A stretch of DNA of 64,000 nt from Paenibacillus sp. W2I17. Lineage in GTDB: Bacteria > Bacillota > Bacilli > Paenibacillales > Paenibacillaceae. The stretch covers positions 496,001 through 560,000 of the forward strand of contig NZ_JAUSXM010000001.1 of NCBI RefSeq assembly GCF_030815985.1, read 5' to 3'. The position numbers and the translations under genes are program-made. The notes beneath the pieces were generated by a model. It ran no database searches, was not told the origin of the DNA, and saw only the letters and a program-made list of their open reading frames with translations. How positions within the stretch are numbered: position 1 is the stretch's first letter; each line of letters opens with the position of its first letter. Shown here piece after piece: positions 8,882 to 61,166 of this stretch.

Positions 8882-8911
8882 TTTACAATCTATTCCTGCC
8901 TGTACTATAAT
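8882..8911 (+). promoter_or_regulatory. Sigma-A-type promoter of the kinase/Tad-like locus
   Basis: TTTACA at 8882-8887 and a perfect TATAAT at 8906-8911 are separated by 18 nt. Transcription would begin near 8918, which places the hairpin at 8941-9011 inside the leader of the following gene. Confidence 0.65.
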
Positions 8912-9036: not shown

Positions 9037-10515
9037 ATGAGACATCCGGCCAGGCTGGAACGCGGAAGCCTGCTGGGAGGTAGATATCGTATCGTATCCA
9101 TTCTGGGAACAGGCGGAATGAGCCATGTATACGAGGCGGAGGATCTGAAGTTGCCGGGAAAGATATGGGCAATTAAAGAAAGCGTAACGATTATGCCATA
9201 TGAAGGCAGTATGGAGACGGAAGCCGCCCTTCTGATATCACTTCGCCATCCAAGATTGCCGCAAATTGTTGATTTTTTTGTCCCGGATGAAGATGGGTAC
9301 ACGTACTTGGTGATGGAATACATCGATGGGTTAACGCTCAGTGAGTATTTCAAGCAGTGTCGTGGGAAGATCCCGATGGAGCAGTTGACGGAGCTTGTAC
9401 TTCAATTGCTGGATGTGTTGAGTTATTTGCATAATCTGAATCCACCTGTGATCTATAGAGATCTGAAACCATCAAACATCATGATCACGCCGGAACATGA
9501 AGTAAGATTAATTGATTTTGGCATCGCCAGAAGTTACAAACCGCAAAGTGCTGAAGATACCGTTAAGTTGGGAACCGCTGGTTTTGCCGCTCCAGAACAG
9601 TATGGTGCGGGTCAGACCGATGCGCGTTCAGATCTATATGGACTCGGAGCATTGCTCCTGTATCTTATGACAAGTGGTGCGTATACGGAATGGATTCAGG
9701 GTGTGGAAAGCTCTATCCGGAGTGATGTTCCGCGGACATACATCCCTGTGGCGAGAAGACTGTTAAGGTATAATGCCGAAGAGCGATTCCAATCTGCCGA
9801 TGAGGTGCGGAAGGAACTGCTCCGAATACCCGGTGGAATAACGCCTGGTGGAGATGCAACCATGACCTTGAATGGCGGAACAAGAGTTATTGCTTTGACT
9901 GGTGCTTCATCTGGTGTAGGGGTTACCCACACGGCTATAGCTATCAGTCATTATCTCGAAAGGCAAAACTTCAAAGTGGCTGTGATTGAAATGTCACCTC
10001 GCTCTCAATCCTTTGCAAGAATTCAACAAATCGCTCAAGCGGGTAAACCGGTGCCAGCAGGCAGACAGTTTGCAGTGGATGGTGTGCATTATTGGAAACA
10101 ATCCGGGCGAGCGGATATTTTGTCTTTGCTTGGGGGGAGTTATCAGTTCATCGTGATGGATCTCGGTAGTGGTCAGGACCAGAACCGGCTGGAAGAATTC
10201 CTGCGTGCAGATCTACCTATTGTTATAGGCTCAGGTGCCGAATGGAGACAGGCGGAGATTGGTGCTTTTGTTCGATCACATCATCGGTATCCACGAGAGA
10301 AATGGATATATTGTCTGCCCCTGGCAGCAAGTGAAGCAGTTCAGCGCATTCGTAAAGCTCTGGATACATCGAGTGTGTATGGGCTACCATTACATATTGA
10401 CCCTTTTGACAAGGACGCACAGATGGATAAAGTGTTTTCACATATTTTAATGCATATGATGGCACGACAACCCAAGAAACGTTCGTTCTTTTCACGAAGG
10501 AAAGTACATGATTAG
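9037..10515 (+). CDS. Ser/Thr protein kinase fused to a ParA/MinD-like domain
   Basis: The N-terminal part (about residues 15-270) is a Hanks-type kinase. It has the glycine loop GTGGMSHVY, lysine 47 in AIKES, the catalytic loop YRDLKPSN with aspartate 142, DFG with aspartate 160, and GTAGFAAPEQY in the activation segment. These residues predict an active kinase. From about residue 285 a ParA-like fold begins with GASSGVGVTHTA, which keeps the loop shape but lacks the Walker lysine. No membrane segment or PASTA domain is visible. The ATG at 9037 has an AAGGAGG site. It opens a ten-gene Tad-like locus, so it may phosphorylate components of that machine. Confidence 0.85.
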   Translation: MRHPARLERGSLLGGRYRIVSILGTGGMSHVYEAEDLKLPGKIWAIKESVTIMPYEGSMETEAALLISLRHPRLPQIVDFFVPDEDGYTYLVMEYIDGLTLSEYFKQCRGKIPMEQLTELVLQLLDVLSYLHNLNPPVIYRDLKPSNIMITPEHEVRLIDFGIARSYKPQSAEDTVKLGTAGFAAPEQYGAGQTDARSDLYGLGALLLYLMTSGAYTEWIQGVESSIRSDVPRTYIPVARRLLRYNAEERFQSADEVRKELLRIPGGITPGGDATMTLNGGTRVIALTGASSGVGVTHTAIAISHYLERQNFKVAVIEMSPRSQSFARIQQIAQAGKPVPAGRQFAVDGVHYWKQSGRADILSLLGGSYQFIVMDLGSGQDQNRLEEFLRADLPIVIGSGAEWRQAEIGAFVRSHHRYPREKWIYCLPLAASEAVQRIRKALDTSSVYGLPLHIDPFDKDAQMDKVFSHILMHMMARQPKKRSFFSRRKVHD

Positions 10516-10541
10516 AAGAGATTACGAAAGGAGAGCCTCTT

Positions 10542-11561
10542 TTGTCTAAATTAAGAAAACAAAGCCGTCAACTGATCTATGCCGGACTTATCGGAGCAGG
10601 AGCTGTAGGGTTGGTATTCGGAGGATATGTTATTTACAATGTCAAAACGATGGGGGATGTCAGGTCAGCTGTAGAAGCCCGTTATTTATCGGCATATGAG
10701 GAAAAGGAAGCTGAATTAAAGCAACAATGGGATTCGGGAGCACAAGGATGGGTTACGATTCGGGATATTGAAGCAGGTGAACCGATATTACCGGAGGATC
10801 TGAAGCTCATTGCTGTTCCGGATGCACAAGCACCGCGAAATCTCTGGTCCAGTACCAAGCAGATGGAAGGCCAAGTGGCCAAAATAGAGTTAAAAAAAGG
10901 AACAGCCATTACCACTGAGATGGTGTATGAGGATGTACCGGCACCGCCCGATTTAAGAAATCGAGAGCTGCAAGTTGTATTACTGCCGTCCTCACTTGTT
11001 AAGGGAGATATTATTGATGTTCGTATCCAATTCCCTACCGGACAAGACTATGTTCTCTTATCGAAGAAAAAAGTGGAACGACTCAATGCAGCTACCTTAT
11101 GGATTACGATGACGGAGGAAGAGATTCTGTCACTCTCAAGTGCAATTGTAGATGCCTATTTACATAAAGCTTCAATCTATGCCTTAACCTATGTAGAACC
11201 ACAGTTTCAGACACCTGCAATCGCGACGTATCCTGCCAATTCAGAAGTGTTAAAACTGCTGGAGAGTGATCCGAATATTGTTCGACGAGCCGAACAGGAA
11301 TTATCCAGACAGGTGCGAAGTTCGCTTGAAAGTTCACTGGCCGCTTCCATGACAGCACCGTCAAAAGGGGTTGAACAGGATGTGGCACAATCCTCAGTTA
11401 CATATAACAATCGTCCATCAGCCAATAATCCGGCAACGTCGGATGGAGTGATGTGGAATGATGGTTCAGGAAACGGAGCAGGAGCTAATTCTGGAAACGT
11501 AAATGATCCTGCTGAAGCTTTACAAACAGAACAGCAGAGCTTGCTAACGGATGGAGAATAG
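10542..11561 (+). CDS. SAF-domain, CpaB/RcpC-like membrane-anchored protein
   Basis: A single N-terminal membrane segment (about residues 11-33) is followed by a SAF-like domain (GWVTIRDIEAGEPILPEDL, then a second half with KKGTAITTEMV). This layout is that of CpaB/RcpC proteins, which accompany the outer or wall-facing part of Tad pili. The C-terminal third is Ser/Asn/Gly-rich and probably disordered. The TTG start at 10542 is supported by AAAGGAGAG at 10527-10535. It lies 26 nt after the kinase gene. Confidence 0.72.
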   Translation: MSKLRKQSRQLIYAGLIGAGAVGLVFGGYVIYNVKTMGDVRSAVEARYLSAYEEKEAELKQQWDSGAQGWVTIRDIEAGEPILPEDLKLIAVPDAQAPRNLWSSTKQMEGQVAKIELKKGTAITTEMVYEDVPAPPDLRNRELQVVLLPSSLVKGDIIDVRIQFPTGQDYVLLSKKKVERLNAATLWITMTEEEILSLSSAIVDAYLHKASIYALTYVEPQFQTPAIATYPANSEVLKLLESDPNIVRRAEQELSRQVRSSLESSLAASMTAPSKGVEQDVAQSSVTYNNRPSANNPATSDGVMWNDGSGNGAGANSGNVNDPAEALQTEQQSLLTDGE

Positions 11562-11637
11562 AGCAAAATCCGAGGTTTACTTTAGAATAATTCAGATAAC
11601 AGGGAGTTTATGAAAAAAGAAAGGAGTTGTAATATCT

Positions 11638-12351
11638 ATGCATACATGGATCTTTGCGGGTTTATGTGAGAAGAATGATCTGATGTTATATCTTTGCAAG
11701 ATATTGGCTTCGACAGGCAACAAGGTCTTGCTCGTAGATGGAACCTTACAACAGAAGTATGGGTACGGCGTAGGTGATAGTCAGCAGTCTTTGCGAATTA
11801 CGGAATTTGAAGGATTTGATATCGCTTGTCATTTTGTCACTTCAGCAGCTGTAGAGAATCATCTTGAAGTAAATGGAGAGCGATTGGACAGTTATGACTA
11901 TGTGTTATATGACATGGAGACCTCGCATTTTGCATCACGTAATCTCTGGCTAACCGCTGATGTAAGAGTCTGGGTGAGTGATTATGAGCGTTACAATCTG
12001 GAACGTGGCAAAGGATGGTTGAAGCGGTTGCTTGAAGAACAGTCATTACCTGGTGAGCTGTCATTTCAGCGGCTCTTAATTAACGGGGTTGACTGCAAGC
12101 TTGAAGCTCGTTATCTGTGGGCGTATCTGGAGGGCAGTCCGTTTGTGTGGACAGGAGAATCCTTAGTGCTTCCGTGGGATGAATTAACAGCTGCAGTTAA
12201 ACTTGAGAATGAGCATCATCGCCGAGTTCATCTTGGACCTTTGTCACGAAATTACAAAAAATCGTTGTGTCGCGTGGTCGAGCAGTTAACAGGTTGGGAA
12301 AGTGTTCGTAGTCGCCGTGCGATGAAAGAAGCAGAGAGGATGAGAGCATGA
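11638..12351 (+). CDS. ParA-like protein with lost P-loop (CpaE-like)
   Basis: The 237-aa product begins WIFAGLCEKNDLMLYLCKILASTG, followed by KVLLVDG. This is the strand-loop-helix-strand order of a MinD/ParA fold, but no GK(T/S) remains in the loop. Later DYVLYDMET occupies the Walker B position. It probably no longer hydrolyses ATP in the usual way and may be a structural partner of the next gene product. The fold assignment is inference from the pattern. A well-spaced AAAGGAG site precedes the ATG, and the stop overlaps the next start by 4 nt. Confidence 0.55.
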   Translation: MHTWIFAGLCEKNDLMLYLCKILASTGNKVLLVDGTLQQKYGYGVGDSQQSLRITEFEGFDIACHFVTSAAVENHLEVNGERLDSYDYVLYDMETSHFASRNLWLTADVRVWVSDYERYNLERGKGWLKRLLEEQSLPGELSFQRLLINGVDCKLEARYLWAYLEGSPFVWTGESLVLPWDELTAAVKLENEHHRRVHLGPLSRNYKKSLCRVVEQLTGWESVRSRRAMKEAERMRA

Positions 12352-13178
12352 GCACCATTACCTTTTGGAGCCCTTTTGCAGGAACAGGTTGCACTTCAAG
12401 CACATTAATTAGTGCTTATGCGATGGCGCTTCACTACAGGACAAGAGTGTTACTTGTTAATGCAGGCCTTGCCGGAACTGGAACAGAAGCTGCTCTACCG
12501 TCCAAAGATACGGATTCAGCGGATTTTATGCTCTCCTTCGAAGAGGGTGGCTGGGATGCGATTGAACGGCTGCATTCGAGCGGAAGTCTGAATAAGCACA
12601 ATCTCAGGGATTATACCAAGCCACTTCTGAAGGAAAGACTTGATTTCCTAACCGGAAGAACTGATGAGATGGAACGTTCCCCACAGGAACATGGTGAGAC
12701 TGTGAAAAAGCTGCTAAATGTAGCTAACGAGTATTATGATCTGGTTCTTCTGGATGCGGATCATGCTGGTGTTGATTCACAGCTCAAGCTGCAACAGGCG
12801 GACTATGTTGTAATTAATCTCGATCAAAATATGCGAAATCTGGAGTTGTTCTTTGAAGAGATCCTGCCAGAACGAATGAACAATATGAATATACATGTTG
12901 TAATTAACAAATACGATTCGCATGCCCGTGCAACGCTTTCCAATATTCGGCGTCAGTTCAGATACAAAGGCACGATATCTGCGATACCGTACACAACCGG
13001 ATACCTGGATGCAATGAATCGACGAGATGTCGCTAGATACTTGCAGTTGGAAAGTTTGACTGAGGATAAGGATATTCGTAAAGGGAGCTTTGCAGCAAGC
13101 ATGAGCGAACTCGCTCGCCTGATTATGGACGGTGCAGGTATGCGCACAGTTCTGAAGAGGCTGGAAAGGGGAGCCTGA
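12348..13178 (+). CDS. MinD/ParA-like ATPase of TadZ/CpaE type with atypical P-loop
   Basis: The product (276 aa) starts with SPFAGTGCTSSTL at residues 8-20, where a deviant Walker A motif would lie, but neither the signature lysine nor the GKT is present. VLLVNAG and DLVLLDADHAG follow as in MinD-like folds. TadZ/CpaE proteins direct pilus machinery to the cell pole or membrane, and some are known to have atypical P-loops. A role as localisation factor for the secretion ATPase is inferred. The ATG overlaps the previous stop. Confidence 0.68.
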   Translation: MSTITFWSPFAGTGCTSSTLISAYAMALHYRTRVLLVNAGLAGTGTEAALPSKDTDSADFMLSFEEGGWDAIERLHSSGSLNKHNLRDYTKPLLKERLDFLTGRTDEMERSPQEHGETVKKLLNVANEYYDLVLLDADHAGVDSQLKLQQADYVVINLDQNMRNLELFFEEILPERMNNMNIHVVINKYDSHARATLSNIRRQFRYKGTISAIPYTTGYLDAMNRRDVARYLQLESLTEDKDIRKGSFAASMSELARLIMDGAGMRTVLKRLERGA

Positions 13179-13185
13179 ACCTCCG

Positions 13186-15012
13186 ATGCTCTGGAATACC
13201 ATATGGATAAGTTTGATTTTGATTCTGTGCCTGACTTATATCTGGTTCAAGTATAGAACGTTTCTTCGTGAAAAGAATGCTCGTGTTCCTGAACAGGAAT
13301 CATTCACGATTGACATGTTGATTGAGAAGGTGAAGAACTCACTTCATGAGCTTAGTCATAGTCAGCTCGCGGATGCGGGTCTGCATGAAGAAGAATATCG
13401 TCGAAGAATTAATCAGCGTGCCGAGATGAGAAAAGCACTGAAGGGCTGTGTCTCAGGCAGTATCAGCGACAAAACGTATGTCAAAAATCTGATAGGGGAT
13501 CTCCTGACCCGAAGCATAGGGCTGAACAAATCAAATGTAGATGAAGTTATTTTGTTTGCAGAACCAGATTTGTTGACGATCCAGGACCGATTCGAAATTG
13601 TGTTTTATCTGTACCGACAGCAATTCGGTATGGATGCACTCTCCCGAATGATTGATACCTACGATCTTGGCAGACTGAGAATGGAAGAAGGTACGGACGA
13701 TGGAGGAAGTTATTATATCTCTGAGGAGGATATTCAGTATGTTTTTGAGTGCGAATATCGAGAGCTTGGATTCAGAGAAAAGACGGATATCATCGTGCAA
13801 CGTATCTACCAGCATTATAAAGGATTCTCGGTTGTTGATGAGATAAGGGACCAACGTATTGACGGCGTTAGTGGTGGTGTTAGCGGTATGCTTGATGCTG
13901 TTCATAATATGGGACTTCGAAAACCGGCATCATGGAATGATTTGCTGGATCAAGGACTGGAGGATGATACACATGTAGAACCGCTTAGCGGCATGGAAAG
14001 TGTCTGGATTTTCTATAAAGGTAAGTCCATTCATCTATCCTTTCTGTCCTTCGGCAGTATTCGTGAACTGAAAAGGGTATGCCAGAATATATACAAATAC
14101 AATTATCCCGGACAGTTGTCGGAAGCAAGTGGATACAAGGTGAACGAGATGAAAGACGGCTCCCGTGTCGTTGTTGTTAGACCTCCTTTTGCAGAATCGT
14201 GGGCGTTCTTCGTCCGGAAGTTCGATATTCCAAATGCTTCACTTGAACAATTGATTACGGGTAACAACGCAGATCTGCCAATTACATTGCTTCAATACCT
14301 GATGAAAGGAAGCCGGATCACAGCTGTAACCGGGGCCCAAGGTTCTGGTAAAACAACGTTGCTTATGGCTATGGTCAAACACATCTATGCATCGTACACC
14401 CTTCGGGTGCAGGAGATGGCGTTTGAACTTCAATTAAGACGGATCTATAGCCGACGTAATATTTTGAGTTTCCGAGAGACTGAACACATTTCAGGTCAAC
14501 AAGGGCTTGATTTGCAGAAAAAAACGGATGGTACCGTCAATATTCTCGGTGAGGTTGCGAGTGATGAGGTGGCCGCATGGATGATTCAAATGTCTCAGGT
14601 TGCCAGTCTGTTCACCCTGTTTACCCACCATGCCAAAACGTTTCGTGATCTGGTCTTCTCCCTTCGTAATTCCTTGCTCAAGACAGGTATGTTCCAGCAT
14701 GAGCATATTGCTGAGGAGCAGGTTGTGAGTGTAATCAATTTCGATGTTCATATGAAGAAAGATGCTGAGGGACGAAGATATATCGAACGAATTACGGAGT
14801 GTCTTCCTCGTGCGAATCAAGGTGATAGCGTGGAAGAGAGGGCAGGTTTTACATTTCATAATGTTGTGGAGTACAGAGATGGAGCGTATGTTGCAACAGC
14901 TCCAATCTCCTCTGGAAGCATGGTGGATATGCGAGAACAGATGACATTACAGGATGCCGAGAAGTTCGAACAGTTTATGAAGCAACACTGGGGTGATCAG
15001 CATGACAATTAA
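13186..15012 (+). CDS. CpaF/TadA-like type II/IV secretion ATPase with N-terminal membrane segment
   Basis: This is the motor ATPase of the locus. Residues 3-22 form a predicted transmembrane helix, which is unusual for this family. The middle part resembles the N-domain of CpaF/VirB11 ATPases. Walker A is GAQGSGKTT with lysine 389, followed by a VNILGEV Walker-B-like stretch and the histidine-box-like FTHHAKTFRDL. It is the only P-loop protein in the locus with an intact lysine, so it is the likely energy source. At 608 aa it is longer than typical TadA because of the N-terminal extension. The next gene starts inside its last codons. Confidence 0.82.
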   Translation: MLWNTIWISLILILCLTYIWFKYRTFLREKNARVPEQESFTIDMLIEKVKNSLHELSHSQLADAGLHEEEYRRRINQRAEMRKALKGCVSGSISDKTYVKNLIGDLLTRSIGLNKSNVDEVILFAEPDLLTIQDRFEIVFYLYRQQFGMDALSRMIDTYDLGRLRMEEGTDDGGSYYISEEDIQYVFECEYRELGFREKTDIIVQRIYQHYKGFSVVDEIRDQRIDGVSGGVSGMLDAVHNMGLRKPASWNDLLDQGLEDDTHVEPLSGMESVWIFYKGKSIHLSFLSFGSIRELKRVCQNIYKYNYPGQLSEASGYKVNEMKDGSRVVVVRPPFAESWAFFVRKFDIPNASLEQLITGNNADLPITLLQYLMKGSRITAVTGAQGSGKTTLLMAMVKHIYASYTLRVQEMAFELQLRRIYSRRNILSFRETEHISGQQGLDLQKKTDGTVNILGEVASDEVAAWMIQMSQVASLFTLFTHHAKTFRDLVFSLRNSLLKTGMFQHEHIAEEQVVSVINFDVHMKKDAEGRRYIERITECLPRANQGDSVEERAGFTFHNVVEYRDGAYVATAPISSGSMVDMREQMTLQDAEKFEQFMKQHWGDQHDN

Positions 15013-17068
15013 ATGGATTTTGCTCCTCGTATTAAGTATTTGTGCAGGAGGTTTGCTGATCACACTTCTGGTTTTAAGTATGTTACGTCACAGAGGAGGT
15101 GGTTCAGCAAGTCAATCCGGCGTTATTCTTGCTCCTAGCGGGAAGGGATTCAAGGGACTGGGATCAATCTTGTTGCAGTCCTACCGTCTTGGAATGAAAG
15201 TGCCACTGCTATCCGCTTATATTCTTCAGGTGCAGAAACGTATTTCATTCCGCCATGTTGGGGATGAGCCTTCACTTCGCAGGCTGACGATGACAGTGGT
15301 TCTGATTATTCTTGGAGGTTATGGAGGCATAAGTGTCATTCTGTTTCTTCTGCAGCCGGGTATCGCTTTTGTAATACTTTCCGTACTCTGTGCTGTGGTA
15401 CTAAACAGCTTGGTATTGGATATGTGCCTCAGTCGTATGGAAAAAAGGTTGCTGGTGCAGATGTTGGATCTCTTTGCAGATGTAAGGCATCGGTATCATC
15501 AGCATGGCATGGTTGAGGAAGCGCTCTATGAAGCCGCTGAAGCAGGTACAGGAGAAGCAGCAGAACAGGTAAGACTGATCTACGAAGCTCTGACTTCTCC
15601 AGATCCAAATGAAGCACTTGAGCGTTATTATGAAGTGGCTCCCAACCGTTTTCTCAAAGGATTCGCCGGCGTTTCCTACATGGTTATGGAGTTTGGGGAT
15701 AAGGACAGAGCACAAGGCTCTATTTATCTTAACGGACTTGGTAACCTGACTCAGGAGATCCATCTGGAGATTTTGCGGCGAGATAAATTGGATTACCTGC
15801 TCAAAGGACTTAATATCATCGCGCTAGCTCCGGTATTATTCACCGCTCCAATCGAACGCTGGGCCAGAGTCAGTTTCCCAACGATGGATGAATTTTATCG
15901 CAGCAAAATCGGTTTTGTTACCAAAATATCAATCTATGTCATCATTATCCTTGCTTATTTGCTTCTGCAAAGGCTCCAGCAATACGATGAGACACGTTAC
16001 CGGTCAGGGCATAAGCATTCATGGTTGGATCAGTTACTGTACAAGCAAATCTTCATACGGAAATTGGCGATGTTGTTTGCAGCAAAACCTGGCAGTGCAC
16101 AGTACAGTCAAACGATACGGCTCATGAGGGAGAGCAGCTCAGAATTGAAATACGAATGGCTTGCCATTCGACGAGTGATGTTATTCGCAGGTTGTTTGGT
16201 CCTTACAATGGGTTGCATCTTGTTGTTGCACCAGGTTGAACGTAACCACATCTTGTATGATCCAATCCGCGATGATCGAATGTTTGGTGCAATGGATGAA
16301 GCAGATCTCAGGAAAGCTGAGGAAAAAACAGCATTGGATCAATCCGTGCTGGAAAGTGTAGAAATGAACCGAGGAGCTACATACGAAGAAGTCGCCAACG
16401 CGTTACAGCAGTTATCTCCCGTTCAGATGGACCATGATATCCAGAATGAGACCATCACGCGCATTATGCAGAAACTTGAGGTGTATAACAAGCAATATGT
16501 ACGCTGGTGGGAAATGATTATAGCCATTCTTATGGGTGTAGTAGGGTATTACATGCCGGTATGGCTCATGTTATTTCAACGGAAAATGCGAAGGTTGGAT
16601 ATGCGACATGAAATCTATCAATTCCAGACAGTGATTTCCATTCTGCGTGAGATGGACCGAATGTCAGTCGAGGAGATATTGGAATGGCTTAATCGATTTG
16701 CCGTCATTTTCAAGCGTCCGCTACAAAAATGTTTGTTGCATTTTGAACATGGTCCAGAGCTTGCACTTGAACAATTAAAGGAAGAGGCGGGCTTGCCCGA
16801 GTTCCAGCGACTGGTTGATAAATTGCAGCTTGCCCTTGGCAAAATATCAATACGTGAAGCCTTCGATGATCTCGAGAGCATGATGGCATTTTATTTTGAA
16901 CAACGCAAGCAGGAGTACAGCAAAATGATAGATGTCAAAGCATCATGGGGGAGAACCATTGGATTTACACCTATGTACGCCCTTATCTTTTTGTATCTGG
17001 TTATTCCATTGGTCGGTATGAGTTTCTTACAGATGAACATTTATTATGAGCAAATTCAGAAACTGTAG
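15002..17068 (+). CDS. Fused TadB-TadC-like membrane platform protein
   Basis: The 688-aa product contains two type II secretion F-like units in one chain. The first has helices near the N-terminus, then a cytoplasmic part (RLLVQMLDLFADVRHRYHQ, and the VMEFGDKD region), then helices around residues 270-325. The second unit follows after about residue 500 (the ISILREMDRMSVEE region) and ends with a C-terminal helix. Classical Tad systems encode TadB and TadC separately, so this is a natural fusion or ancient duplication. I prefer ATG 15002 with GGTGAT upstream over the in-frame GTG at 14993. It overlaps the ATPase gene by 11 nt. Confidence 0.75.
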   Translation: MTIKWILLLVLSICAGGLLITLLVLSMLRHRGGGSASQSGVILAPSGKGFKGLGSILLQSYRLGMKVPLLSAYILQVQKRISFRHVGDEPSLRRLTMTVVLIILGGYGGISVILFLLQPGIAFVILSVLCAVVLNSLVLDMCLSRMEKRLLVQMLDLFADVRHRYHQHGMVEEALYEAAEAGTGEAAEQVRLIYEALTSPDPNEALERYYEVAPNRFLKGFAGVSYMVMEFGDKDRAQGSIYLNGLGNLTQEIHLEILRRDKLDYLLKGLNIIALAPVLFTAPIERWARVSFPTMDEFYRSKIGFVTKISIYVIIILAYLLLQRLQQYDETRYRSGHKHSWLDQLLYKQIFIRKLAMLFAAKPGSAQYSQTIRLMRESSSELKYEWLAIRRVMLFAGCLVLTMGCILLLHQVERNHILYDPIRDDRMFGAMDEADLRKAEEKTALDQSVLESVEMNRGATYEEVANALQQLSPVQMDHDIQNETITRIMQKLEVYNKQYVRWWEMIIAILMGVVGYYMPVWLMLFQRKMRRLDMRHEIYQFQTVISILREMDRMSVEEILEWLNRFAVIFKRPLQKCLLHFEHGPELALEQLKEEAGLPEFQRLVDKLQLALGKISIREAFDDLESMMAFYFEQRKQEYSKMIDVKASWGRTIGFTPMYALIFLYLVIPLVGMSFLQMNIYYEQIQKL

Positions 17069-17130
17069 CACAATTCATCTGTGTGACAGTCTGAAATAGT
17101 TTAATAACTTATAACTTGGGAGGATTTATC

Positions 17131-17616
17131 ATGAACAATGCATCAAGCGCTTTAAAGGTGGCAGCAGGGATATTCTTAACAATCGCTTTGATCACAATTG
17201 TAGTTCTGTTGTTTATTTCGGCTCAGGAGGCAACCAAGACGGCCCAGAACAATTTTGCTGATATCCAAACCGAGTTGTCCCAGGCTGCATTTACGGTATA
17301 TGACGGAACAACCATCAGTGGATCGCAGGTAACGAATGCGCTGCGTAAATATGCGGACAAGGATCAGTTCGGTATTCAAGTTATTACAGGTAAAAATAAA
17401 GCGGGGCAATGGTACGGCAATCAATTAAACATTTCACAGGATCTCAATAATGCGGACTACGGCTCGGTTATTGCACCTGACGATAAAGTGGGGATTATTA
17501 ACCAGACCATGAGTGAAAAAGACAATCAATATGTCAATCCAAGTGGTAAATTCAAAGCGATTATCGTAAAAGACCGATCCAACGTGGTAAGAGGGCTGAT
17601 CTTCCAGCAATCCTGA
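17131..17616 (+). CDS. Small membrane-anchored pilin-like protein
   Basis: The 161-aa product has one N-terminal hydrophobic helix (about residues 8-31) and then an extracellular-type domain with the stretch YDGTTISGSQVTNALRK. The helix starts after a GIFLTIAL stretch, but I see no textbook class III (Flp) or type IV prepilin cleavage site. Its place right after the platform gene and its strong GGGAGGA ribosome site fit a major structural subunit or pseudopilin. The function is inferred from context; the protein is not recognised with certainty. Confidence 0.6.
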   Translation: MNNASSALKVAAGIFLTIALITIVVLLFISAQEATKTAQNNFADIQTELSQAAFTVYDGTTISGSQVTNALRKYADKDQFGIQVITGKNKAGQWYGNQLNISQDLNNADYGSVIAPDDKVGIINQTMSEKDNQYVNPSGKFKAIIVKDRSNVVRGLIFQQS

Positions 17617-17632
17617 CAGGAGTTGGTTTAAC

Positions 17633-18031
17633 ATGTCCCGGAATACACAGCATCTCATGTTGTTTTGTACGGCGGTTGTCCTGTTTGTGACAGCCTGCCT
17701 GTACGGGCAACAGAATGTTAAGATTTTATCAGCGGCCTTGAACGACAGAGTACAGACAACTGCAGGCATGGAAGGTCGGCTGACAACAACACTGCATACC
17801 AGCAATTCCTATCAATATAGTGGTGCGGAAGTGTTGCATACCGTGAGGCAGATGACAGGCACTAGCATTCCTGTGGAGGTAGATGGGACTTCGTATGTAA
17901 TCGATCCACTTGTCAGCAAAACAGTGACGATTCCTGTCCAACTCGATGCCAGCTACAGACCAGAGTTTATACGAAACGAAACTGGAGAACTGCTCAAGAT
18001 TGTTTTTTGGAAGGAGAACAGTGTGAATTGA
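17633..18031 (+). CDS. Second small membrane-anchored protein of the Tad-like locus
   Basis: The 132-aa product has an N-terminal hydrophobic helix (about residues 7-24) and then a short extracytoplasmic domain. The stretch YSGAEVLHTVRQ resembles ISGSQVTNALRK of the preceding gene product, so the two look like distant relatives. No catalytic residues are visible. AGGAG precedes the ATG, and the stop overlaps the next start. I infer a minor pilin or pseudopilin role. Confidence 0.5.
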   Translation: MSRNTQHLMLFCTAVVLFVTACLYGQQNVKILSAALNDRVQTTAGMEGRLTTTLHTSNSYQYSGAEVLHTVRQMTGTSIPVEVDGTSYVIDPLVSKTVTIPVQLDASYRPEFIRNETGELLKIVFWKENSVN

Positions 18032-18579
18032 TTAATGCCGCATCCAAGCTGCTTGCCGTATTGCTCGCAGTCCTTCTGCTCTATGTGTACCCAGCTGCTG
18101 AAACAGCCGATCGGCAGGACGATATAACACGTATGACGGCTGTTCAGAATGTAACACATTTTGTTGATGCTGTCCGAACGAAAGGATATATTTCACCTCG
18201 AATGTTGGCTGAGTTTGAGGAGCAACTGGCCCAGACGGGCAATGTGTATGAGGTATCGATGGAACATTTACATAAGAAATATGTACCTCACTATACAGAC
18301 CCGATGGACAATAACAGTTTTACCGGGACCTATGAGGTAGTGCAGGATGGATATTATGCAGCTCAGATTCGAGAAAGACTATTCCCCTCCTCAGGTGTTA
18401 TACCGGTTGATGATCCTGGCCGAAGATATACGTTGACCACAGGGGATTTTTTTACCGTGATGCTCCAAAATACAAATCGTACACCTTCCATGCTCATTCG
18501 TGAATGGTTGAGTGGTACGGCTCAGGCTTCAGCGGTATTTGTAACATACGGAGGTATGGTCCTAAATGAAGATTACTGA
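18028..18579 (+). CDS. Membrane-anchored protein of unknown function in the Tad-like locus
   Basis: The product (183 aa from the TTG at 18028) has an N-terminal hydrophobic segment and then a soluble domain with FVDAVRTKGYISPRMLAEF and a GDFFTVMLQN stretch. I do not recognise the family. The TTG at 18028 overlaps the previous stop and has AAGGAG 11 nt upstream, which I prefer to the TTG at 18007. Its place suggests a surface component of the same machine. Confidence 0.55.
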   Translation: MINAASKLLAVLLAVLLLYVYPAAETADRQDDITRMTAVQNVTHFVDAVRTKGYISPRMLAEFEEQLAQTGNVYEVSMEHLHKKYVPHYTDPMDNNSFTGTYEVVQDGYYAAQIRERLFPSSGVIPVDDPGRRYTLTTGDFFTVMLQNTNRTPSMLIREWLSGTAQASAVFVTYGGMVLNEDY

Positions 18580-19549
18580 GCTATCCATTGTATTTGTGCT
18601 GATCTTCTTCCCGCTCTTCTGGATCGTCTCACTCCATACCCAAGATGCCGAAGAAGCTCAATATCTTGGCCAACGATACAGATCTGCACTTCAAACTGCA
18701 GTCATGGATGCAGGTGCAGTCATGCATCAGAATGAGAAACAAAATGATGAAGCGGGTTATGATTCAACCAAGTTTGTTAAAGCGGACAAAGAGCTTGCCT
18801 TGTTAACATTTACTCAGACGATGGCTTTGAATATAGGGATTCAGGATGATCCCGCAGCTATTCGAAACATGTTTAATTACATTCCTGCCGTGGTTATTCT
18901 GGATTATGATGGCTATTATATGTTGTCCACAGAAACAGAGATGACGGGTAACCGTGAAGATTCTTTCAGGCAAGTGTGGAGCCCCAAGAAACCTTATACA
19001 TATTCAGATTCTAATGGTAACAGTATCAACTTTACACTGGATGACTACGTATATGCCTTTGACGCAAGCGCAGGGAGATGGATTGAGGGATTCCAAAAAG
19101 AACTGGCTTCAAGCACACAGATTCCTTTACTTCAGAATACCAGCGTATTTGAGCAAGTTAGACAAAGCCGGATTGTGACTACGGTGCAGGATGATCTGGC
19201 TGATGTGATTAACCGCCATAATGAGTTTGCCAGAAATAACGGTATTTGCTATACGTTTACGATGCCCCTGATTGCGCAGGAAGATTGGTACAACACCATT
19301 AACGATACAGGGATTATGGCCTTTATCCAAGGCATAGGTGTGGGTGACCAGAAGATTAACAATTATGCAATTGGTGGAGGCAGACTTGTGAAGAAAACGG
19401 CCATCGTAGGTGGGGTAGATCCTTTAACGGGTATCAGGTACTATTACCCCTCCACATGTGGTAATGGTTACCGTGCTGAAGAGGTGTTCACAGACGCAAG
19501 ACAAGCAGCTGCACAAGGCTATTTCGAATATAAATGCTCTAATCGTTAG
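18566..19549 (+). CDS. Large membrane-anchored surface protein closing the Tad-like locus
   Basis: The 327-aa product has an N-terminal membrane helix (about residues 7-24) and a large extracytoplasmic part. Tyrosine- and aspartate-rich stretches such as AVVILDYDGYYMLS are visible. I do not recognise the family. The ATG at 18566 has a GGAGGT site and overlaps the previous gene by 14 nt. It is the last gene on this strand before a 140-nt gap with no clear terminator. A tip or adhesin-like role is conceivable but not shown. Confidence 0.55.
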   Translation: MKITELSIVFVLIFFPLFWIVSLHTQDAEEAQYLGQRYRSALQTAVMDAGAVMHQNEKQNDEAGYDSTKFVKADKELALLTFTQTMALNIGIQDDPAAIRNMFNYIPAVVILDYDGYYMLSTETEMTGNREDSFRQVWSPKKPYTYSDSNGNSINFTLDDYVYAFDASAGRWIEGFQKELASSTQIPLLQNTSVFEQVRQSRIVTTVQDDLADVINRHNEFARNNGICYTFTMPLIAQEDWYNTINDTGIMAFIQGIGVGDQKINNYAIGGGRLVKKTAIVGGVDPLTGIRYYYPSTCGNGYRAEEVFTDARQAAAQGYFEYKCSNR

Positions 19550-21301: not shown

Positions 21302-21321
21302 AGGCTACAACTTCATATGAA

Positions 21322-21412
21322 CACTAGGGGGGCCGCACGATGCGGCTGAGATGGAAGAATGCGATTCTGGACCCTTTGCACCTGATCTGGATCATACCAG
21401 CGTAGGGAAGTG
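21322..21412 (+). promoter_or_regulatory. TPP riboswitch (THI box)
   Basis: The conserved blocks GCGGCTGAGAT and ACCTGATCTGGAT are present, followed by ATACCAGCGTAGGGAA. CACT at 21322-21325 pairs with AGTG at 21409-21412 as P1. The expression platform is the terminator at 21592-21620, about 180 nt downstream and just before tenI. Thiamine pyrophosphate binding would lower expression of the thiazole operon. Confidence 0.95.
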
Positions 21413-21591
21413 GCGAGCGCGTTTCAGTGAATGACGTGAGCAAACGGCAACTGAAAAGGATTTCAACCGTCTGCTTAACGAATTGAAACATGCAGTTGCG
21501 TGTATAACGTTATGGCTATAAGGTCTATAGCTTTATTGCACGAAATGAACTGTATGTATCAGTCAGTCATCTGGTCCTATAATTAATACGC

Positions 21592-60799: not shown

Positions 60800-60969
60800 A
60801 TGGTTAATAATCACGTATGGATTCGGAAAAGTAACTATTCTGTTACCAAATGTAAAGGAATCGGGTCGTCCAATATTTCTAAAGTATCCAGTACTCTTAC
60901 ATATGCTTACATGCTAAAAAACCATTTGGTAAGAATTACTACAAGTTCAGGTTACAAAATTGTGATATA

Positions 60970-61160
60970 TTGAACTCTGCCGAAACTTCCGGACAGGGAG
61001 TGCGGGGGATGTAACGATGCAGATTGTGCAGGGGGAAGATCTACAGCACACTGCTTGGGGTGAATTAGGGGTACATAACGTTTCAAATGTAATGAAGAAC
61101 CTATAGGGTGGGCTCCTCATCCGAATCCGACAACTAACTTCGCAGGCACAATGAGGGAGG
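60970..61160 (+). promoter_or_regulatory. c-di-AMP riboswitch (ydaO/yuaA type)
   Basis: Conserved blocks of the ydaO aptamer are visible in order: a GAACTCTGCCGAAAC start, GTGCGGGGGA (61000s), TTGGGGTGAATTA, AGGGTGGGCTCCTCA and CCGAATCCGACAACTAAC with TCGCAGGC. CTCCTCAT (61113-61120) can pair with the ATGAGGGAG that contains the ribosome site (61151-61159). The start codon lies 7 nt further and there is no terminator between, so control of translation is likely. The 60800-60969 stretch shows no gene. Confidence 0.88.
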
Positions 61161-61166
61161 AAGACC

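Follow-up and report, generated by a model that had tools for sequence, protein, structure and literature searches.

The window analysed here, a stretch of 64,000 nucleotides from Paenibacillus sp. W2I17 (G000:C1:496001-560000 of a 7.0 Mb genome in one contig; locus labels L### and genome labels G### are our own), carries at positions 9037-19549 ten open reading frames (ORFs) that probably encode a divergent machine of the Tad superfamily. An earlier sequence-only reading had described ten same-strand genes with overlaps or short gaps, and this layout was confirmed, all ten ORFs lying on the + strand. Judged by the ATPase g5, the closest named relatives are Paenibacillus xylanexedens and P. 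amylolyticus. The features, in window positions, are as follows.

g1, 9037..10515, + strand: Ser/Thr kinase domain joined to a ParA-like domain, 492 amino acids (aa) (Pkinase 123.7 bits, cut-off 31.7; CbiA 18.8, below its cut-off of 25.4)
g2, 10542..11561, + strand: SAF/CpaB-like, membrane-anchored (SAF 34.8 bits, cut-off 21; TIGR03177 39.6, under its cut-off of 71)
g3, 11638..12351, + strand: weakly ParA/CpaE-like (AAA_31 16.0 bits, below cut-off; order kept)
g4, 12348..13178, + strand: weakly ParA/CpaE-like (CbiA 22.0 bits, below cut-off; order kept)
g5, 13186..15012, + strand: CpaF-type ATPase with a hydrophobic N-terminus, 608 aa (PDB CpaF match; hydropathy)
g6, 14993..17068, + strand: fused platform protein, 691 aa, N-terminal half TadB-like, C-terminal half without assignment (profile-profile comparison)
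g7 (s1), 17131..17616, + strand: pilin-like single-pass protein (alignment; AlphaFold2 model)
g8 (s2), 17633..18031, + strand: single-pass protein, s1 homologue (hhalign)
g9 (s3), 18007..18579, + strand: single-pass protein of a conserved family, no fold assigned (family alignment)
g10 (s4), 18566..19549, + strand: single-pass protein of a conserved family, 327 aa, no fold assigned (family alignment; no useful PDB match)
Promoter-like site 5' of g1, 8882..8911, + strand: 11 of 12 matches, a weak call, with fewer such sites in the region than in shuffles (14 vs 22.1)

The start of g7 was set at ATG 17131 by family alignment, and 26 base pairs (bp) separate g1 from g2. The count of terminators in the region is at chance level (8 vs 8.2) and sets no operon limits. 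By simple hydropathy, g7-g10 have one hydrophobic stretch each, near the N-terminus, as expected from the earlier description of four small membrane-anchored proteins; Pfam/TIGRFAM-type profile scans gave chance-level family matches only for these four. The SAF/CpaB-like protein was also upheld by its SAF match. The two CpaE-like proteins were not established as such, as g3 and g4 gave only AAA_31/CbiA matches of 11.8-22 bits, all below cut-off. Family profile scans of the ten proteins matched no peptidase, secretin or Flp family, and no EssC or WXG100.

We compared the locus with 123 related loci (43 unnamed and 80 named), which were chosen for diversity or similarity rather than at random, include at least four contigs counted twice (L046/L183, L049/L179, L145/L170, L120/L176) and exclude L128, a canonical Tad locus. 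Eight core families (SAF, CpaE1, CpaE2, CpaF, TadBC, s1, s3 and s4) were all present in 105 of the 123, and 103 of these kept the same order and strand, so the gene order is retained in relatives. L119 and L175 deviate solely because their best s1 match is a second copy 3' of s3. The other 18 loci lacked one or more core families, several of them on short contigs. The related loci range from Paenibacillus to Clostridia, and a search of the family's 295 genomes detected g6 in 170. Within the class the ATPase subfamily (E 1e-60) is far from universal, since it occurs in 35 of 398 genomes and 7 of 145 genera. Scanning with the ATPase alignment returned at least 570 relatives among at least 582 pattern matches; the best 80 of these relatives comprise 54 from Clostridia or related metagenome-assembled genomes (by their titles) and 26 from Paenibacillus, Cohnella and Tumebacillus. 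ATPases that are near-identical across different families (L118/L048; L121/L122/L050) suggest that the machine moves horizontally. L048, L049, L050, L056, L118, L121 and L122 have no kinase lead, and ParB-like, DNA methyltransferase or group II intron genes lie near some of them.

The proposal of a CpaF-like ATPase was borne out by a PDB profile search, in which g5 matched solved CpaF structures at E 4e-10 to 5e-10 over profile positions 262-535. Pfam T2SSE was matched at about its cut-off (24.4 bits by hmmscan and 24.9, against 24.9), while TIGR03819 gave 39.6 bits against a cut-off of 373. The residues of two motifs, which we take to be Walker A and the His box, were invariant in 20 of 20 aligned ATPases. 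Residues 1-19 of g5 are hydrophobic, and such an N-terminus is unusual for CpaF. The ATPase gene of L042 (7081-9072) appears as two ORFs, perhaps through a pseudogene or a sequencing error, and was left out of the ATPase alignment and tree.

The platform protein g6 passed the cut-off of no family and had no T2SSF match. As its profile also failed to match single canonical TadB and TadC sequences, its likeness to TadB emerges only with deeper profiles. When a g6 profile built from 113 sequences was compared with a profile of 30 canonical TadB proteins, the N-terminal half matched with a probability of 94 and E 2e-8 (89 and 2e-6 with shifted settings), compared with at most 1.8 for reversed profiles, 7.3 for TadC and 5.8 for the SAF family. 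Canonical TadB against TadC, the positive control, gave 96.8. In 9 of the 80 named loci g6 is encoded as two ORFs meeting near residues 430-444, as expected for two joined proteins. Of the TadB-TadC fusion proposed earlier, the TadB half stands, but the TadC half has no match. PDB profile searches with g6, s1 and s4 gave no usable match, and weak matches to viral glycoproteins and receptors were treated as noise.

The window's s1 shares 44-81% identity with 21 other copies and carries a short N-terminus, with a lysine, before the invariant Gly13. Its AlphaFold2 model (ma2c350587c32; predicted local distance difference test 85.4, predicted template modelling score 0.65) starts with a helix (residues 2-55) that leads into a small alpha/beta domain, and in outline the model appears pilin-like. 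The neighbouring s2 is homologous to s1 (hhalign probability 95.5, E 1.4e-8). Profile comparison showed s3 and s4 to be unrelated to each other. Several named records annotate s1 as 'ABC transporter permease', but our family scans lend this assignment no support.

The genome has one A24 prepilin peptidase, and it lies elsewhere than the window locus: in a separate canonical Tad locus (L036, G000:C1:2980000-2999999), about 4 kb from two T2SSF-matching genes and 6 kb from the genome's other T2SSE gene. The earlier remark that prepilin peptidase, secretin and Flp pilin are missing is correct for the locus, but for the peptidase it does not extend to the genome. Because a single A24 peptidase is present, processing of s1 in trans by the canonical-locus enzyme is possible; canonical TadB was found in 58 of the 59 family genomes searched. 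Co-occurrence across the 295 genomes cannot decide whether the machine depends on a prepilin peptidase, since 293 have one and the other two also lack g6.

The lead protein was described earlier as a kinase-ParA fusion. Its kinase part is well over the Pkinase cut-off, but the ParA-like part is matched only below cut-off. In an alignment of g1 relatives that leaves out L054, residues K47, E62, R141, D142, N147 and D160, presumably the kinase catalytic set, are invariant in 13 of 13 sequences, and the P-loop-like stretch (consensus GxxSGVGTTH) has no lysine at the Walker A lysine place in any of the 13. Similarity of the g1 kinase domain is higher to the kinases of four type VII secretion system (T7SS) loci (199-217 bits) than to the 715-798 aa kinases of the same five genomes, its own included (96-106 bits). 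Three further kinases at 188-201 bits, the proteins of L288-L290, have no EssC in the 10-11 kb around them, so this kinship is not exclusive to T7SS loci.

A kinase is found in the lead gene of 18 of the 123 loci (one contig counted twice), in addition to the window. In L054, L125, L144, L147 and L149 the lead protein matches the g1 profile over the ParA-like part only (285-496, E 4e-17 to 9e-56), with an N-terminal domain that is receiver-like by eye and a hydrophobic helix at the end. In L281 and L282 (the latter the same record as L173, from P. anaericanus) the N-terminal domain is weakly YukD-like (20.7-20.9 bits against a Pfam cut-off of 27) and EssC directly follows the lead gene. A kinship of this YukD-like domain with the free ubiquitin-like proteins found no hhalign support (probability 0.9). 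A ParA-like lead domain also occurs at G007:C10:6962-11579, with EssC 137 bp downstream on the same strand. Across the 295 genomes, with the ParA-like domain called at E 1e-5 and g6 at E 1e-3 with the window query, so that a diverged g6 could be missed, 142 had both, 31 the domain only, 28 g6 only and 94 neither. The earlier suggestion of direct phospho-control of assembly by the kinase is weakened by these results: a kinase leads only the 18 loci of this non-random sample, its place is taken in other loci by domains that are receiver-like by eye or weakly like YukD, and in 31 of the 295 genomes the ParA-like domain occurs with no detected machine.

In relatives, the machine is repeatedly found beside type VII secretion genes. 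At least 28 of the 295 family genomes have machine genes no more than 20 kb from EssC, in several arrangements and with EssC of separate clades. Of 166 listed g6 places, 19 have an EssC gene no farther than 15 kb away; as a rough yardstick, with no formal null behind the distance count, 30 kb of a 6 Mb genome is about 0.5%. Nine further linked genomes (G040, G152, G171, G235, G237, G260, G267, G271 and G291) come from regions picked for holding EssC, and for G235, G260 and G152 these regions contain only part of the machine. The gene order of L144-L148 is EssC, EspG-like, ubiquitin-like, lead protein, WXG100-like and SAF through to s4, the EspG-like and ubiquitin-like genes being called by eye and position, with no Pfam match in L147. 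The EssC of L147 scores 1266 bits with TIGR03928 (cut-off 778) without an FHA match, and a WXG100 match is present. L124 is arranged in the same way, its EssC cut by the locus end. In L260, a second copy from the window's genus, EssC (1170 bits) begins 31 bp after s4 and is followed 85 bp later by a WXG100-like gene; L263 is similar, and its small gene is over the WXG100 cut-off. L252-L259 have a longer EssC at a distance of 2.6-10.5 kb from s4, and that of L259 has an FHA domain (53.7 bits). In L261 the gene between s4 and EssC encodes pre-toxin TG and nuclease domains in one protein, as would be expected of T7SS cargo.

The machine-linked EssC proteins occupy three places in a FastTree tree of 38 sequences. 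L144-L148 group with L277-L280 (support 1.0), and their sister L264 is linked (as L281); L249-L259 form a group with support 1.0 in which 8 of 11 are linked; and L260-L263 lie in a group with support 0.7 (1.0 with L266), whose linkage was read from the surroundings of members other than L266, L267 and L274. If linkage were the rule for the long EssC proteins of the L249-L259 clade, each should lie beside a machine; this failed in 3 of 11, as L249-L251 have no machine on either side examined (the other side being L283-L285). Linked loci also form three supported groups in the ATPase tree; much of its backbone is weak, with 21 of 43 inner branches starred, and it fixes no number of gains or losses of the linkage. 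EssC over cut-off is present in 97 of the 142 genomes with both ParA-like domain and g6, in 10 of the 31 with the domain alone, in 11 of the 28 with g6 alone, and in 7 of 94 with neither, counts that are confounded by kinship. The window's own copy is an orphan, with the genome's EssC at C1:2012703, 1.5 Mb away. That region (L167, G000:C1:2001000-2020900) is a T7SS of its own, in which EssC and WXG100-like genes are accompanied by genes that look kinase-, vWA- and phosphatase-like by eye, and the whole resembles T7SSc on the same basis.

Several neighbours of the machine in other genomes were also recorded. An ORF family whose representative, L230:15765-16640, is a SpoIVB S55 peptidase (349 bits with TIGR02860) is found 3' of the machine in 36 of the 80 named loci, L230 and similar ones in Clostridia, and may reflect plain synteny. 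An M23 peptidase gene directly follows s4 in L154 (15985-16935; Pfam) and could possibly encode a wall-opening partner; L155 and L156 have ORFs that look alike by eye. In L052 the machine is directly upstream of CpaE-like and CpaF genes resembling that genome's canonical Tad locus. Elsewhere in the window, a thiamine pyrophosphate riboswitch (21316-21425) lies 5' of a gene that is ThiE-like by eye, and a cyclic di-AMP riboswitch lies at 60968-61164.

The CpaF match of g5, the TadB-like N-terminal half of g6, the SAF domain of g2 and the conserved order agree with the earlier assignment to the Tad/type II secretion superfamily. Judged by its sequences, the locus is a real, conserved and divergent branch of the Tad superfamily, and its predicted function as a Tad-type motor is well supported by homology; as a Tad pilus it fails on its pilin and peptidase features. 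We consider it fairly probable that these genes specify an envelope machine of Bacillota, a divergent form of Tad (type IVc), that operates as follows. The CpaF-type ATPase g5 would drive the fused platform protein g6, which would extrude or pump the pilin-like s1 and s2 through the membrane and cell wall, giving a short filament or pseudopilus. The SAF protein g2 and the single-pass s3 and s4 may be accessory or tip parts, and the ParA-like g1, g3 and g4 may place or gate the machine. In the window the Ser/Thr kinase of the lead protein would be the input module, perhaps by phospho-gating, and in several relatives the machine would be wired to EssC/WXG100 type VII export. Gene content and order, homology of the ATPase and of the TadB half, and the repeated EssC linkage in relatives are shown by the sequences, whereas we infer extrusion, the filament and phospho-gating.

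A number of findings weigh against this reading. The C-terminal half of g6 has no profile match above control noise, and neither s3 nor s4 matched any family or, for s4, a useful PDB entry. Glu5 is a feature of type IV pilins, and s1 lacks it, all 22 copies having Ile or Leu as the fifth residue after Gly13. A phmmer search with two A24 queries found no prepilin peptidase in any of the 123 loci. Finally, 27 of the 31 genomes with the ParA-like domain and no detected g6 belong to one genus, and in the one genome of these whose locus was viewed (G110, L287) a full-length kinase-ParA protein (569 bits) stands among window-like neighbours without the machine. Here either the machine was lost and the gene kept, or the gene has a role of its own.

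That last point also favours a less probable alternative, in which the kinase-ParA gene is a resident with a role of its own between a methyltransferase-like and an ABC-F gene, where kinase-led copies are mostly found, and the nine genes that follow simply adjoin it. L287 has the kinase-ParA gene at that spot without a machine, L288 and L289 have there a kinase protein that Pfam matches over the kinase part only, and machine copies elsewhere do without kinase-ParA. Yet the ParA-like domain is homologous to lead proteins elsewhere, T7-linked ones included, it co-occurs with g6 in the counts given above, and the g1-g2 gap is short. An ordinary Tad-type adhesion pilus, its pilins cut by the canonical locus's single A24 peptidase, seems unlikely. 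The lone peptidase and the invariant Gly13 behind a short, lysine-bearing N-terminus would fit it, and systems without their own peptidase that may borrow one are reported (PMC6668835). It is opposed by the missing Glu5, by an s1 helical segment unlike Flp with no Flp or TadE family match, and by the canonical Tad locus already in the genome.

It is rather improbable that the machine is chiefly part of type VII secretion everywhere, the window included, where it would serve the T7SS 1.5 Mb away. The 19 linked g6 places and nine further genomes, the close s4-EssC-WXG100 run, the separate clades of linked EssC and an EssC over cut-off in each of the 44 genomes from the window's genus are in its favour, but EssC is within 10 kb in only 5 of the 80 named loci (the five that rank first in similarity to the T7-linked query), 62 of 170 g6 genomes have no EssC over cut-off, three EssC loci of a linked clade have no machine, and the window's copy is unlinked. 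A T7 role for this copy would be an extrapolation. Very improbable is a transfer machine of mobile elements, to which the copies beside ParB-like, DNA methyltransferase and intron genes and their near-identity across families might point; the window copy and its kinase-led relatives have a stable chromosomal setting, and no relaxase or coupling protein is among the genes listed around the window's copy.

Set against these alternatives, the divergent Tad-type machine is the reading we prefer, and the type VII link in relatives is its most interesting open lead. The linkage suggests that some Gram-positive bacteria may pair a pilus-type motor with a type VII exporter. In some genomes EssC and WXG100 are the last genes of the machine's run, and in two loci a weakly YukD-like domain is joined to the machine's ParA-type protein. 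Only tentatively, the family might be a Bacillota-wide Tad-type motor that several lineages recruited into type VII secretion, where it would build a wall-crossing pseudopilus for EssC-dependent export. Its ParA-type lead protein would then take exchangeable input modules, be they kinase, receiver-like or YukD-like domains, and TshM of T7SSh would be this lead protein rather than a kinase. If true, a pilus-type motor would aid type VII export in variants that appear to have no known wall-crossing part. The varied EssC linkage makes such a Tad-T7SS link testable by single deletions in culturable Paenibacillus.

Comparison with known systems places the locus nearest the Tad (type IVc) pilus, with which it shares a CpaF-type ATPase, a TadB-like platform half, a SAF protein and, by matches below cut-off, ParA-like proteins in a single locus. 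It differs in the fused platform with an unmatched C-terminal half, its own pilin-like family without Glu5, the absence of a peptidase from the locus, the hydrophobic N-terminus of the ATPase and the kinase in the lead protein. Minimal Tad machines occur in monoderms (PMC6916266), and TadB and TadC are described as derived by fission (PMC6668835). TadZ/CpaE combines a receiver-like domain with a ParA-like ATPase (in part after PMC11217815), and the lead proteins of L054, L125, L144, L147 and L149 have the same plan, joining a receiver-like domain (by eye) to g1's ParA-like domain. In the window the N-terminal domain is instead a Ser/Thr kinase, and the Walker A-place lysine is absent from all 13 aligned sequences.

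The sequence-only reading knew of no characterised system of this layout. That needs qualifying, because Tad genes beside T7SSg and T7SSh are known: PMC11217815 describes both as always beside Tad genes and leaves open whether this is a link or a coincidence. The literature matches listed, most subscription papers being outside their scope, include no paper on a kinase-led locus of this kind. L124 and L144-L148 resemble the description of T7SSh in having EssC, WXG100-like genes, ubiquitin-like and EspG-like genes (by eye) and a lead protein with a C-terminal hydrophobic helix, the adjacent Tad genes being those of the present family. The window locus differs in having no EssC, WXG100, ubiquitin-like or EspG-like genes. 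TshM of T7SSh, described in the same paper as possibly kinase-like with a C-terminal transmembrane helix, may be the ParA-like lead protein of L144-L148, which fits by place and topology. The s4-EssC-WXG100 and FHA-bearing EssC arrangements described here, compared with that paper by description only, extend the set of contexts, and the occurrence of one divergent Tad-type family next to EssC proteins from separate clades, in varied arrangements, bears on the question that PMC11217815 leaves open.

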